From assembly GCF_000008545.1 (NCBI RefSeq), contig NC_000853.1, positions 1,564,465 through 1,628,464 on the forward strand: a stretch of DNA of 64,000 bases. Reading direction: 5' to 3'. Positions 3,987-9,432 of this stretch are shown in pieces. The DNA is from Thermotoga maritima MSB8 (GTDB taxonomy: Bacteria > Thermotogota > Thermotogae > Thermotogales > Thermotogaceae). The position numbers and the translations under genes are program-made. Position 1 is the first letter of the stretch; each line of letters begins with the position of its first letter. Under the pieces are notes generated by a model, which was not told the DNA's origin, made no database searches, and saw only the letters and a program-made list of their open reading frames with translations.

Positions 3987-5090
3987 ATGATCAGTTTCGA
4001 AACCAAAACCAAGATAGAAGAACTTGAAAAGAAATACAAGGATGTTCTTTCGGTGGTCAACGAGGATGAAATCAACAAGGAACTCGAAGAGGTAGAGAAA
4101 AAACTCACAGATCCATCGGTATGGGATGATCAAAAAAAGGCGCGTGAGTACACCCAGAAACTGAAGAGGTTGAAGAACATCTCTGAAGATTTGAAGAGAG
4201 TGAGATCTCTGTTCGAAGATCTGGAAGTTGCCATAGAACTTTCCGACGAGGATCAGGAGATGGCTCAGCACGTGGAAGAAATAGTTCAGGAGCTGGAAGG
4301 TGCCGTCAAAAAACTGGAACTTGAGATCATTCTGAACGGAAAATACGATCCGAACAACGCTTATCTGTCGGTCCATCCAGGTGCGGGTGGTACCGAGTCT
4401 CAAGACTGGGCGCAGATGCTTCTCAGAATGTACATGAGGTGGGCAGAGAGAAAAGGTTTCGATGTTGAGATTGTGGAGTTCCAACCGGGAGAAGAGGCCG
4501 GTATCAAGGATGCCACGATTCTCATAAAAGGTGAATACGCTTACGGTTACTTGAAACACGAATCCGGTGTTCACAGACTGGTCAGGATCTCACCCTTCGA
4601 CGCGGCCAGAAGAAGACACACTTCTTTCGCTTCTGTGAATGTGATTCCGGAGATAGATGACGACGTGGATATAGAGATCAGACCGGAAGATTTGAAGATA
4701 GAAACTTTCAGAGCTTCTGGACACGGCGGACAATACGTCAACAAAACCGAATCTGCCGTGAGAATCACGCATCTACCGACCGGGATCGTGGTCTCCTGTC
4801 AAAACGAAAGATCGCAGCACCAGAACAAACAAACCGCGCTGAAGATACTCAAAGCGAAACTCTACCAACTCGAGATGGAAAAGAAGCGAAGGGAAATACA
4901 AGAGATTCAGGGAGAACTCAAGGACATTTCCTGGGGAAACCAGATAAGATCTTATATTTTCCACCCGTACACGATGGTTAAAGATCACAGAACCGGAGTG
5001 GAAACTGCGAACGTTGACGCCGTTATGGATGGAGACATAGATATGTTCATAGAGGCCGAGCTGGTCTATTTCGCTCGTCGATCAAGTTAA
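3987..5090 (+). CDS. prfB: Peptide chain release factor 2
   Basis: RF2 recognises UGA and UAA and triggers peptide release. The tripeptide anticodon SPF is at 202-204 and the catalytic GGQ at 247-249, close to their E. coli positions, which supports the ATG at 3987. That ATG has GAGGTG (3974-3979) at good spacing; the GTG at 3978 and ATG at 3981 overlap the secA stop and are too close to it. The gene is one uninterrupted frame, with no in-frame TGA near codon 25, so the programmed +1 frameshift that controls RF2 in many bacteria is absent. Its stop overlaps by 9 bases the end of the convergent gene. Confidence 0.97.
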   Translation: MISFETKTKIEELEKKYKDVLSVVNEDEINKELEEVEKKLTDPSVWDDQKKAREYTQKLKRLKNISEDLKRVRSLFEDLEVAIELSDEDQEMAQHVEEIVQELEGAVKKLELEIILNGKYDPNNAYLSVHPGAGGTESQDWAQMLLRMYMRWAERKGFDVEIVEFQPGEEAGIKDATILIKGEYAYGYLKHESGVHRLVRISPFDAARRRHTSFASVNVIPEIDDDVDIEIRPEDLKIETFRASGHGGQYVNKTESAVRITHLPTGIVVSCQNERSQHQNKQTALKILKAKLYQLEMEKKRREIQEIQGELKDISWGNQIRSYIFHPYTMVKDHRTGVETANVDAVMDGDIDMFIEAELVYFARRSS

Positions 5091-6110
5091 ACCGTATTTC
5101 TTCATTTTGTAAGACAGGGTCTTGTAGTTCATATTCAGGACTTCACATACTTTTTTTCGATTGCCCTCGTTTTCCTCGAGGGCTTTCTTTATGACCTTCT
5201 TTTCCACGAATTCAACCAGAGAGTCAACGAATTCTTTCAGGTTCAAGCCTTTTATCTCATCGATTCCACTGGCGATTTTCATCGCCTGATCAACGGGATT
5301 CTCCAGAGTAATTATTTCGTAGACTTTCTCGAGAAATTCCTGCGTGTTTCCCGGCCAGTGGTACTCTATCAGGAGCTTTGTCAGATCGTCATCGATTTTC
5401 ACTGTTTTTCCCTGGAACTGAAGAGACTTTATGACCCCGTCAAGCATGTAGGGTATATCCATCTTTCTTTCTCTCAAAGGCGGTATTTCGACGAAGGGGA
5501 TGTTGTTTTTCGGTGTGCTGTCCATTCCCAGTATTATCTTTCTACCACCAAGGCCAGCAGGCGAGAAATCTGGAGGCACATCGTCGATGAAAACAGTGTG
5601 CGAATTTATGTTCAGCGGAAGATCTTCGTGGTAGATGAGGGAAAGGTAATTTCCACCCGTTACAAAATCCACATACGCGTGTCTGTGAACCCCTTTCTCT
5701 GAAACCAGCGCAAAAATTGAAAAAGAATTGTAAAATTTCAAAACTTGGAACAGAATTTCCTTTATCTTGGCTCCCTGAAGTTCTGGGGTGTAGAGTAAAA
5801 GGTTGAATCTTGCCTTGATGGTTTCAAGATCCTTTCTGGCAGCCGCGTACTTCAAGGCAAGTTCCAGCTCCCTCAAAGACTGGACAAAAAGGGTGTCTTC
5901 CATTTCCAGAATTTTTTCACCGAAAACTACATCCCACTTTTCGGCAAGGATCTTGTCTCTGTAGTCTTCTCCTTCGTACAGGTCCCAGATCACATCGTGG
6001 GATATCTCTGATATCATATCTTTGAAGGTGTTGACAATATCCTTTCTGATGAGGACCCTCAACACGGTATCAGCCCCGTTGTCCGTTGCTTCCGTTTCAA
6101 ATCTTACCAC
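5082..6110 (-). CDS. NtrC-family-like regulator with degenerate AAA+ domain and Fis-type HTH
   Basis: The C-terminal half carries marks of sigma-54 activators: PPLRER followed by MDIP (about residues 210-219 from the GTG start), WPGNTQEF (252-259), and a Fis-like helix-turn-helix at the end (GNRKKVCEVLNMNYKTL). The Walker A motif (GESGTGKE in the family) is replaced by SEKGVHRH and no GAFTGA loop is present, so ATP hydrolysis and sigma-54 contact look lost. The N-terminal 100 residues are unassigned. The start is uncertain: a TTG at 6146 would overlap the divergent gene, and GTG at 6110 fits better, but neither has a good Shine-Dalgarno sequence. The gene is divergent from the phosphodiesterase-like gene, with only about 25 bases between starts. 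Confidence 0.75.
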   Translation of the reverse strand: MVRFETEATDNGADTVLRVLIRKDIVNTFKDMISEISHDVIWDLYEGEDYRDKILAEKWDVVFGEKILEMEDTLFVQSLRELELALKYAAARKDLETIKARFNLLLYTPELQGAKIKEILFQVLKFYNSFSIFALVSEKGVHRHAYVDFVTGGNYLSLIYHEDLPLNINSHTVFIDDVPPDFSPAGLGGRKIILGMDSTPKNNIPFVEIPPLRERKMDIPYMLDGVIKSLQFQGKTVKIDDDLTKLLIEYHWPGNTQEFLEKVYEIITLENPVDQAMKIASGIDEIKGLNLKEFVDSLVEFVEKKVIKKALEENEGNRKKVCEVLNMNYKTLSYKMKKYGLT

Positions 6111-6135
6111 ACGAAAGGGAGGAAAGAGGAACGGA

Positions 6136-7281
6136 ATGGAGCTCAAAAAACTGGATGAAGGTCTTTTCTGGCCGGATTACAAAAACTCTATCGTCAATTT
6201 TTCAAATTCGATTCTCGAGTTGTTCGACGAAAAACCACTACATAGGCCTTTCAGGTTCCCCAAGCGAGTTCTTGAAAACGTGAGAAAAGTGATCGTTATG
6301 GTAATAGACGGCCTCAGTTTTGAGATCTTTTCGGACACGATTCATGATGACGATGTTCAGGTTTTTCCCTGTTCGGCTGTTTTCCCAACCACCACCGCTG
6401 CTGCTCTTCCCAGTCTCTACTCTGCTCTCACACCGCTAGAACACGGTTTTTTAGGTTACATTCTTTATCTCAGAGAAGTGGGAAGCCTTGTGAACATGAT
6501 AGAGATGTCTCCTCCGGGCCTTCCCAGAGACAGCGTGCTCAGGTTTCACGATTTCAAGTTCACCACTATCTTTCAGAGACTTCAGAGCAAAGTGAAGAGC
6601 TTCTTTCTTATTCCAAGGTATCTTCTGGGAACGGGTTTTTCCAGAATAATGTCCCAGGGATCGGAGCAGATCGGTTTTTCGAGTTTTGGGGATATGATCG
6701 AAAGAACTCTTGAAGTGCTTGAAAAACACGACAGAACGCTGGTTTTCATCTACTGGCCAACGTTGGATTCGATAGCGCACAAAAACGGTGTTGGAAGAGA
6801 GTACATCAGAGAGCTAAGATGGATTTACAGGATCTTGAAGTCCGAACTTCTCCGCAGGTTGAAGCAGGATACGCTCTTTTTCCTCGTGAGTGACCACGGA
6901 CAGATTTCGACACCTCAAGACAACGAAATATGGTGGAATTTTTCTTCTGAAGTTATGAGGTTTCTCGACAGACCCCCCGCTGGAGAACAGAGAATGATGT
7001 TTCTTTATACGAAAAAAAAGAGAGCTTTGATAGAATATCTTAAGGAGAAATACGGAGATTTTGCCGTTTTTCTTGACACGAAAGACGTCGTCCAGCTTTT
7101 TGGAACTGGAAGAAAGCATCCAGAATTTTTCAGCAGAGTGGGAGACGCTGTTCTGATAACAAGGGAGACTTTTTCTTTCAATTACAGATACACAGGAAAG
7201 GAAGAGAGCTTGTCTGGAAGGCACGGGAGTCTTTCTTATCAGGAACTGGTGGTGCCGTTGGTAGTCTACAGGAGGTGGTAG
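6136..7281 (+). CDS. Alkaline-phosphatase-superfamily phosphodiesterase/nucleotide pyrophosphatase-like protein
   Basis: A metal-dependent hydrolase of about 381 residues. Family features are VIDGLSFE near the N-terminus (first metal Asp), the nucleophile region FPTTTAAALPSLYSALTP, TLDSIAHKNG, VSDHGQ (metal Asp and His), and SGRHGSLSY with a late metal His. This is the type-I phosphodiesterase/nucleotide pyrophosphatase layout; the substrate cannot be told. There is no signal peptide from the chosen start, so it is probably cytoplasmic. ATG at 6136 follows a GGAGG at about 6118; an upstream in-frame ATG at 6022 would add residues encoded opposite the divergent gene and is unlikely. Confidence 0.85.
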   Translation: MELKKLDEGLFWPDYKNSIVNFSNSILELFDEKPLHRPFRFPKRVLENVRKVIVMVIDGLSFEIFSDTIHDDDVQVFPCSAVFPTTTAAALPSLYSALTPLEHGFLGYILYLREVGSLVNMIEMSPPGLPRDSVLRFHDFKFTTIFQRLQSKVKSFFLIPRYLLGTGFSRIMSQGSEQIGFSSFGDMIERTLEVLEKHDRTLVFIYWPTLDSIAHKNGVGREYIRELRWIYRILKSELLRRLKQDTLFFLVSDHGQISTPQDNEIWWNFSSEVMRFLDRPPAGEQRMMFLYTKKKRALIEYLKEKYGDFAVFLDTKDVVQLFGTGRKHPEFFSRVGDAVLITRETFSFNYRYTGKEESLSGRHGSLSYQELVVPLVVYRRW

Positions 7282-7291
7282 GTTCCGTTAT

Positions 7292-7735
7292 TTGAAGAGT
7301 CCAACCTGGGGAAAAGTGGATTACAGAACGGTTCGAGAGCTCATAAAAAAGTTCACAGAAGGATACAAATACAGCGTGTTCGTCGGGACGGACAGTGATG
7401 TGAAGGACGGGAAAGTGATATACGCCACGGCACTTGTTGTGTATCGTTTTGGGAGCGGTGCCACTTACTTTTACACGGTGTACAGGGACGGAAATGGAAA
7501 AGATCTGTATTCGAGGATCTTCAAAGAAGCGGAGATGAGTCTCGAGATGGCAAGATTCGTAGAGGAGATATTGAAGCTGGGAAAACCTGTTGTGCACCTC
7601 GACATAGGTTACGAAGGTCTCACAAAAGATCTCGTGTCCAGTGTGATAGGTTACGTGAAGGGGGTTGGGTACCCCTATCAGATAAAACCTGATTCGTTCG
7701 CCGCCACGAAAATTGCGCATAAACACACCAAATAG
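7292..7735 (+). CDS. RNase H-like DUF458 (YkuK-type) protein
   Basis: 147 residues with the DUF458 pattern: VFVGTDSDVKDGK near residue 30 (first acidic residues), a central strand-helix region, HLDIGYEG, and a C-terminal DSFAATKIAHKHTK. The family has an RNase H fold by prediction; its biochemical role is unknown to me. The start is TTG at 7292, preceded by GGAGGTGGTAGG at 7271-7282, part of which overlaps the stop of the upstream gene. It is followed after 12 bases by the PurH-like gene and is probably cotranscribed with it and comF. Confidence 0.85.
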   Translation: MKSPTWGKVDYRTVRELIKKFTEGYKYSVFVGTDSDVKDGKVIYATALVVYRFGSGATYFYTVYRDGNGKDLYSRIFKEAEMSLEMARFVEEILKLGKPVVHLDIGYEGLTKDLVSSVIGYVKGVGYPYQIKPDSFAATKIAHKHTK

Positions 7736-7747
7736 GGAGGTATAGTT

Positions 7748-8830
7748 GTGAGAATCCTTCTGAGTGTCTCCAGATTCGAAGACGAACTGATCGAAATTCT
7801 CGATAGACTCGATGAAACATACGAAATCTTCGCTGATAACGATTGCTTCGAGATTCTCAAAGATAGAATCCCCAGGATAAGACCGTTTGAAAGAGACGAC
7901 TTCGATCTTCTTTATCTGAACTGGAGAGATTTGCCTTCCGAGAAACGAGAGGAAAAGATACTTTCGACCATCGATGAGAACAGAACTCTCCTTTTCCTAA
8001 AGGCGATCAAGAATTATCGTGAAAAGCTTGTGGTGACCACTTTGGAAGATTTGAAACTCACCTTCTCTGAGATAGAAAGAGCGGGGGACGTTTCCCTTCA
8101 AACTAGGAGGTACCTTCTTCTCAAAGGGCTTGCACATTTTTTGAAAGTTCATTCCGAAGTTCTTGAGAGCCTGTCTGATCTATTTTTCATAAAGGATTGG
8201 AAAGCAATCGTCCTGGAAAGGTTACAAGAGGGTATCAAAGCGCCTGTCAGTCTCCTGCCAGTGAGCATTCCTCCAGAACTGGTTGAGGATATCGGTCTCG
8301 CTTCGCATCTGATAAGGTTCCTGCCCCAGAAAGCGTGCGTTCTGGTTAAAAACGGGAAGATCGTTTACGCTTCATCGACGGGTGATCTTCCAGAAATCGA
8401 GGGTGGTGTTTTCGCACTCAAAGGTGTGTTCAGAGGAGAGAAGAAGTTTGACTTCATCCTGGCAGAGGATTTCGAAGGTGATGTGGAGGGTTTGAGGATA
8501 AAGGACTTGCTCCATCAAGAAGAGGGCCTCGTTCTTTTGGGAGCGTCTGGATACCTGAGAGAACCCGTTCCAACAAACGACTTCACAGAGGTGCTCTCTA
8601 TGCACCCGGTTTTCGACAGCTGCGCTGTGACGAAAGAAGGAAAACTCGTCCTTCACGTTGTGGAACTGAACAGAAGCGATGTCATAAATGCCCTTGAGAA
8701 AATTGACCTTTCGGGCACGGAGGTGGCGTTCAACTTTCCCATCTCTGATGAAGAGAAAGCCGAGCTGAAACAAAAGGGGGTAAAGAAGGTATCCTGGATA
8801 GATTCGAGAAGAATCTGGAGAAGGTGCTGA
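7748..8830 (+). CDS. Shortened, divergent PurH-like protein (AICARFT/IMPCHase homologue), function unknown
   Basis: Not obvious at first sight. The N-terminus RILLSVSRFEDELIEILDRL, followed by a strand-helix pattern, looks like the MGS-like domain of PurH. Residues about 85-150 (IKNYREKLVVTTLEDL, GDVSLQTRRYLLLKGLAHF) follow the PurH pattern AAKNY...V/DPEDY...GVSLETR...LA.KAF. A later piece (ASHLIRF, KACVLVKNGKIVYASSTG) resembles the K.SNA.V.AKDG..VGIG.GQ part of the transformylase. The central catalytic region (RYGENPH and the KHxNPCG Lys-His pair) is missing and the protein is only 360 residues. It is probably catalytically altered or a regulatory paralogue. GTG start at 7748 with GGAGGT at 7736-7741; it overlaps comF by 7 bases. 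Confidence 0.6.
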   Translation: MRILLSVSRFEDELIEILDRLDETYEIFADNDCFEILKDRIPRIRPFERDDFDLLYLNWRDLPSEKREEKILSTIDENRTLLFLKAIKNYREKLVVTTLEDLKLTFSEIERAGDVSLQTRRYLLLKGLAHFLKVHSEVLESLSDLFFIKDWKAIVLERLQEGIKAPVSLLPVSIPPELVEDIGLASHLIRFLPQKACVLVKNGKIVYASSTGDLPEIEGGVFALKGVFRGEKKFDFILAEDFEGDVEGLRIKDLLHQEEGLVLLGASGYLREPVPTNDFTEVLSMHPVFDSCAVTKEGKLVLHVVELNRSDVINALEKIDLSGTEVAFNFPISDEEKAELKQKGVKKVSWIDSRRIWRRC

Positions 8831-9432
8831 ACTATCTTTTTGAGAATAACTGCCTTCTCTGTGGCAAGGAAGTGTCACCACTCAGATCTTTGTGTGAGAA
8901 CTGCGAAGAGAAGGTCCTCAAAAATGGACCTTCTTTTTATCGTGAAGTTCACAGAAAATACGAGCTTTTTGTGTACTCTGACTACACGGATGAAATTGAA
9001 CGCATCATAAGGCTTTACAAATATCATGGTGAAGTTTCTCTTTCCGGAACATTGGTGAAGCTTTTTCTGAAACTTTACAGTTATTTTCCCAGAGAAGCCA
9101 ACCTCATCACATGGGTTCCTTCTTCGCTTGATTCTCTCGAAGACAGAGGCTTCGATCACATGAGACTTCTAGCGAAGAGGATAAGCAAAGAGTTGGGCAT
9201 ACCGTTTGACGCTGTTCTGGAAAACGTGTCGGAAGGAAGACAGGTGGAAAAGAGCAAAGAAGAGAGGAAAAGAACCGGAAGATTCATCTGTAAGAAAGAT
9301 CCTCCTCAGAACGTGATACTGATAGACGATGTTTTGACGACGGGAACCAGTGTAAGAGACTGCGTGGAAACCCTTTTCAGGAATGGAGTCAGCAAAGTTT
9401 TCGTTTATGTTCTGGCGAAAACTAGACGATGA
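8824..9432 (+). CDS. comF: ComF/GntX-type phosphoribosyltransferase-like protein
   Basis: 202 residues. An N-terminal four-cysteine zinc finger (CLLCGKE...CENC) is followed by a phosphoribosyltransferase fold with the PRPP loop NVILIDDVLTTGTSVRDC near the C-terminus. VEKSKEERKRTGRF is the usual ComFC signature. ComFC is needed for DNA uptake during natural transformation, which has been reported in Thermotoga. GTG start at 8824 overlaps the preceding gene by 7 bases. The 3' end overlaps the convergent glycerate kinase gene by 11 bases. Confidence 0.9.
   Translation: MLNYLFENNCLLCGKEVSPLRSLCENCEEKVLKNGPSFYREVHRKYELFVYSDYTDEIERIIRLYKYHGEVSLSGTLVKLFLKLYSYFPREANLITWVPSSLDSLEDRGFDHMRLLAKRISKELGIPFDAVLENVSEGRQVEKSKEERKRTGRFICKKDPPQNVILIDDVLTTGTSVRDCVETLFRNGVSKVFVYVLAKTRR

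Follow-up and report, generated by a model that had tools for sequence, protein, structure and literature searches.

A probable non-catalytic PurH paralogue encoded before comF in Thermotoga maritima and retained across the Thermotogota

PurH combines two activities, AICAR transformylase and IMP cyclohydrolase, and the catalytic residues of the cyclohydrolase are K66, Y104, D125 and K137 in human numbering (PMC3261824). Division of the enzyme into separate proteins has been reported as frequent only in Archaea (PMC3261824). The protein can also serve outside biosynthesis; in Methanosarcina, PurH and aEF2 together dimerise 50S subunits as the factor MRDF (PMC12605026). ComFC of Helicobacter binds PRPP, nucleoside monophosphates and single-stranded DNA, and its physiological ligand was stated to be undetermined (PMC9005727). 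In Thermotoga maritima, comF is TM1584 and is listed among the competence genes (PMC5637354). Here we analysed a window of 64,000 nucleotides of the T. maritima MSB8 genome, in which comF is preceded by a gene for a second, shortened PurH-like protein that we call paraPurH (Table 1).

Table 1. Positions of paraPurH, its parts and its neighbours, numbered from the first nucleotide of the window
Feature	Position	Strand	Description
Type I phosphodiesterase/nucleotide pyrophosphatase-like gene	6142..7281	+	PF01663; first gene of the presumed operon
RNase H-like gene	7292..7735	+	PF04308, E 2.1e-41; upstream of paraPurH
paraPurH	7748..8830	+	360 aa; GTG start; GGGAGG ribosome-binding site just upstream; PurH paralogue, predicted to be catalytically dead
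paraPurH N-terminal half, residues 1-149	7748..8194	+	Degenerate IMP cyclohydrolase domain (predicted)
paraPurH C-terminal half, residues 150-360	8195..8827	+	Shrunken AICAR transformylase domain (predicted); two deaminase-like lobes; RYGENPH absent
K200-N201 of paraPurH	8345..8350	+	Aligns to the Lys-His catalytic pair in KHxNPCG
comF	8824..9432	+	Phosphoribosyltransferase-fold competence protein

paraPurH is the third of four tightly packed genes, following the phosphodiesterase-like and RNase H-like genes and preceding comF. The gaps in this run are about 10 nt, then 12 nt between the RNase H-like gene and paraPurH, and finally an overlap of 7 nt between paraPurH and comF, in agreement with the gene order given in the first-pass annotation. 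The PF04308 gene adjoins paraPurH only within the genus and in one further genome (G090). Counting from the adjoining TM1584, the gene should be TM1583, a number for which we found no Thermotoga paper in the open literature. The true purH lies elsewhere in the genome (G000; 1,860,725 bp) and is followed by purD. Near the locus, a Fis-type HTH protein is encoded at positions 5082-6146 of the minus strand. It carries HTH_8 and an AAA lid (PF25601), but Pfam gives no match to an ATPase domain of the sigma-54 activator type, and the protein seems to be another eroded enzyme-like product of this neighbourhood.

Pfam, NCBIfam and PDB searches with the single paraPurH sequence gave nothing above threshold. 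In Pfam, PF01808 scored 14.3 bits, below its cut-off of 25, over residues 86-143 only, and no MGS match was returned; the best phmmer match in the PDB had an E value of 0.07, and a scan of the genome contigs with the paraPurH protein alone yielded no match. With single-sequence matches below threshold, the resemblance to PurH noted at first could have arisen by chance. Profile comparison, an AlphaFold2 model and Foldseek nevertheless concurred in relating the protein to PurH. By hhalign, a profile of seven orthologues matched 11 canonical PurHs (E 4.5e-10) and 13 paraPurHs (E 1.6e-26), both domains being covered in each case, and human PurH was retrieved from the PDB by hmmsearch (E 1.1e-4) with an orthologue profile that contained no canonical PurH row. 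The AlphaFold2 model of the whole protein (pLDDT 87.8, pTM 0.72) had only PurH/ATIC or ForH among its top 24 Foldseek matches in the PDB, with 4ehi (E 2.3e-15) and T. maritima PurH (1zcz, E 5e-14) ahead of ForH. Because one of the 32 rows of the underlying alignment was a canonical PurH, the C-terminal half was modelled again from an alignment restricted to paralogues of the Thermotogaceae, the family of the window genome (f1). This model (pLDDT 81, pTM 0.81) had PurH for all of its 21 best PDB matches, that of T. maritima being first (E 4.3e-7). TM-scores against PurH were modest, 0.52 for the whole protein and 0.61 for the C-terminal half, values to be expected of a protein that has shrunk and whose domains have shifted.

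When the profile of the C-terminal half was compared directly with canonical PurH, no match was obtained (probability 1.5); it matched less eroded paraPurHs at E 5.1e-9, and these matched canonical PurH at E 3e-84. The tie of this half to canonical PurH thus goes via other paraPurHs and via the predicted structure. On the profile and structural evidence paraPurH is almost certainly a genuine PurH paralogue, and the two checks proposed with the first-pass annotation, HMM-HMM comparison and structure prediction, both led to PurH. The MGS-like N-terminus described there is present, in a degenerate and gapped version only.

Profile searches, counting matches other than the canonical gene, revealed a second PurH-like protein in 88 of 103 Thermotogota genomes. 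No second PurH was found in 39 genomes of other phyla, so that paraPurH looks specific to the Thermotogota. In a tree of 72 rows, a branch with an SH-aLRT of 98 separated the paraPurHs, including that of T. maritima, from canonical PurHs drawn from Thermotogota and many other phyla. The clade persisted with a bootstrap of 96 when the N-domains of slow-evolving members were analysed and the long-branch Thermotogaceae rows were left out, which argues against long-branch attraction. Within the genomes searched, paraPurH therefore looks like an old paralogue of this phylum. One genus (g32 of family f10; G039-G045) has lost paraPurH throughout and has mostly kept canonical PurH. We found no prior description in the open literature, and as far as our searches show paraPurH constitutes an undescribed family of PurH-derived pseudoenzymes.

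The protein of the window is indeed shortened, as first noted, with 360 residues compared to 477 in the genome's own PurH ORF and about 510 in canonical PurH. RYGENPH has no counterpart in it. The KHxNPCG segment, which had been listed as missing together with RYGENPH, is retained as the strand VLVKNGKIVYASS, in which Lys-Asn replaces the Lys-His pair; the reported loss of the transformylase catalytic pair is upheld by this substitution of the histidine rather than by absence of the region. Close orthologues align with Lys or Arg followed by Asn, Asp or Glu, the position of the catalytic His being Asn in paraPurH and Asp or Glu in orthologues. In the N-domain, the equivalents of D125 and K137 are retained as D76 and K88, K66 is gapped, Y104 is replaced by Arg and the SGGT phosphate loop is lost. 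Given that neither transformylase motif is intact and that only two of the four cyclohydrolase residues are found, the alignments indicate that paraPurH of Thermotoga very probably catalyses neither PurH reaction. As K66, Y104 and the phosphate loop have gone too, the altered enzyme suggested earlier is unlikely for either reaction. The genuine Thermotoga PurH (L001:1117-2547) also has unusual features, namely a shortened cyclohydrolase domain that is evolving very fast (end branch 2.93) and an R64 to Leu replacement.

Loss of both catalytic sites and fast evolution are also what a decaying pseudogene would show, but the reading frame is open in 13 of 13 Thermotogaceae genomes, residues are invariant in both halves and the paralogue is retained phylum-wide. 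Within Thermotoga its dN/dS is 0.10-0.19, indicating purifying selection, and on these grounds we rejected decay, to which we assign a negligible probability.

Other lineages display different stages of erosion. The Lys-His pair of the transformylase is intact in none of the aligned paraPurHs, and the transformylase half is wholly lost in the neighbouring family f2, in f11 and in part of f3, where these clade members are stand-alone N-domains. Among aligned members, K66, Y104, D125 and K137 are all intact wherever the transformylase of the genome is stand-alone only, that is, in f3 genera g10-g12 and in the second copy of G089. Elsewhere Y104 is usually replaced, by Arg in aligned f2 and f11 members, by Ser in four of four g13 genomes and by Pro in most of f10; the exceptions, with an intact set alongside a full PurH, are G086, G038, G046, G053 and G054 (the G061 row was ignored because the wrong ORF had been chosen). 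Even with Y104 replaced, members in f2, f3, f10 and f11 retain the phosphate loop, K66, D125 and K137. The intact set beside a stand-alone transformylase suggests that some lineages probably use paraPurH as a working cyclohydrolase, which Thermotoga could not do. This side role, in which an intact N-domain would supply the missing cyclohydrolase, has good support in those parts of the phylum. Intact N-domain, single-residue loss of Y104, loss of a whole domain and a double-dead fusion are thus all visible, a natural experiment in which a central metabolic enzyme has been turned into something else.

The stand-alone bacterial AICAR transformylases, of about 300 aa (L099:3150-4046, L100:2173-3081 and L101:3256-4272), occur in genomes with a separate cyclohydrolase and hence represent split PurH. 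Three genes of G089 derive from PurH (L035, L037, L100); one is a dead paraPurH linked to comF, and the others encode an intact cyclohydrolase and a transformylase, each stand-alone. In G082-G085, the stand-alone cyclohydrolase-type paraPurH (L046, L031, L182, L183) has K66, D125 and K137 intact and Y104 replaced by Ser. These four genomes lack PurC, full-length PurD, AICARFT and full-length comF, leaving paraPurH an orphan with no obvious substrate.

Altogether, 26 genomes from six families keep paraPurH without PurC, full-length PurD or a catalytic AICARFT (G001, G006, G008-G011, G013, G016, G019-G021, G024, G025, G028-G032, G082-G085, G088 and G097-G099); some of these are incomplete assemblies, and the same pattern recurs in near-complete ones. 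Purine synthesis and paraPurH are both absent only in G033, G034, G042 and G087, the last of which has just a fragment of comF at a contig edge. PurP was considered as a replacement in genomes without PurH and rejected, as none was found in Thermotogota. In a Thermotoga relative, PurC is spread over two reading frames (G091:C1:1291846-1292509), through a frameshift or sequencing error. Retention of paraPurH without purine synthesis points to a function outside the de novo pathway, and we consider it likely that its role is independent of that pathway. For annotation, a PurH-like match in Thermotogota does not mean purine synthesis, since PurH-derived pseudoenzymes are kept across the phylum even where the pathway is gone.

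These genomes also bear on the possibility that paraPurH is a regulatory subunit that tunes the genuine PurH in mixed oligomers. The two proteins coexist in most genomes and PurH works as a dimer (PMC12605026), but the 26 genomes keep paraPurH in the absence of catalytic PurH or any other tested de novo gene. Moreover, paraPurH lies outside the purine gene cluster of the window genome, and the paraPurHs of f2 and part of f3 have no transformylase half at all, which together make a regulatory subunit improbable.

The neighbouring comF gene is the most conserved feature of the paraPurH locus. paraPurH lies directly before comF on the same strand in all genomes of f1 (13 of 13) and f2 (10 of 10) that have both genes, 23 of 23 in total, usually overlapping it or nearly so, whereas the genes further upstream vary. 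We saw no such linkage in other families. Full-length comF was not found in f3 genera g12 and g13 although paraPurH is kept, and partnership with ComF can therefore not be the ancestral role; it would be a derived one in f1 and f2. The adjacency could result from shared transcription alone, and we regard ComF as a plausible partner of paraPurH at somewhat less than even chances. paraPurH is a concrete candidate partner for ComF. In f9/f10, paraPurH (L085, L086, L088, L089, L090, L092, L094) adjoins a glutamine synthetase-like gene instead of comF, and f2 paraPurH adjoins a nucleobase permease-like gene, both neighbours having been recognised by eye from sequence.

The main rival to a non-enzymatic scaffold or binding partner is a purine-nucleotide sensor, in which the PurH fold would still bind IMP, XMP, AMP or PRPP-like ligands and inform ComF or other partners of the purine state. 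PurH crystal structures contain XMP and AICAR, according to the titles of 1pkx and 4a1o. The conservation of phosphate loop, K66, D125 and K137 after loss of Y104 in f2, f3, f10 and f11 is as expected if binding outlives catalysis, and the permease-like gene beside f2 members and the glutamine synthetase-like gene beside several f9/f10 members would fit such a role. In f1, however, deletion or replacement has removed K66 and the phosphate loop and, with them, most of the ancestral pocket. The Thermotoga version shows erosion of both ligand sites inherited from PurH, and the family also persists in genomes where no purine intermediates are made. We consider a sensor rather unlikely. Among the functions first proposed, regulator, sensor or altered enzyme, the evidence favours a non-catalytic role, the altered enzyme being disfavoured and the sensor sites eroded in the Thermotoga version.

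A ribosome-binding translation factor, modelled on Methanosarcina PurH with aEF2 (PMC12605026), was also considered. Foldseek and hmmsearch with paraPurH both retrieve the PurH chain of that complex (9ou7), and prfB is found near paraPurH in f1 and part of f3, but the Methanosarcina partner is an archaeal factor and the similarity extends to the shared PurH fold only. As 98 of 103 genomes have the standard hibernation factor, HPF, no gap is left for paraPurH to fill, and we judge a ribosomal function very improbable. As a replacement for near-universal HPF, paraPurH is likewise unsupported.

A non-catalytic role is the best reading of paraPurH. A PurH paralogue has shrunk and lost both catalytic sets, and we propose that its product acts as a scaffold or binding partner, probably as an oligomer like PurH, with a core role that does not depend on purine synthesis de novo. 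In Thermotogaceae and f2 it would most probably act with ComF, for example as a co-translated partner. As a whole, this explanation of a non-enzymatic PurH-fold pseudoenzyme with a purine-independent core role, most likely exercised with ComF in f1 and f2, seems to us as probable as its negation. A more specific version, in which an ancient Thermotogota-specific family independent of purine synthesis supplies a dedicated partner coupling ComF, or other machinery in other lineages, to purine status or DNA/RNA handling, is more speculative, with perhaps one chance in a few.

In comparison with described systems, paraPurH has the domain order and predicted fold of bifunctional PurH (TM1249, structure 1zcz; 4ehi), but is 150 aa shorter than the canonical protein, belongs to a separate clade and lacks the transformylase motifs, K66, Y104 and the phosphate loop. 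It shares the N-domain fold with stand-alone IMP cyclohydrolases (ForH, 6nko; archaeal PurH2 sensu Brown et al. 2011), from which it differs in retaining a shrunken transformylase half and lacking the cyclohydrolase active site. PurR and PyrR of Bacillus, regulators with the phosphoribosyltransferase fold (PMC9005727), provide an analogy, as the fold of a nucleotide-pathway enzyme has been co-opted non-catalytically, although that fold is unrelated to paraPurH. Methanosarcina PurH in MRDF places the PurH fold itself in a non-enzymatic job, as proposed here; that protein was described as an enzyme of biosynthesis that takes on a second function, whereas paraPurH would be a dedicated dead paralogue.
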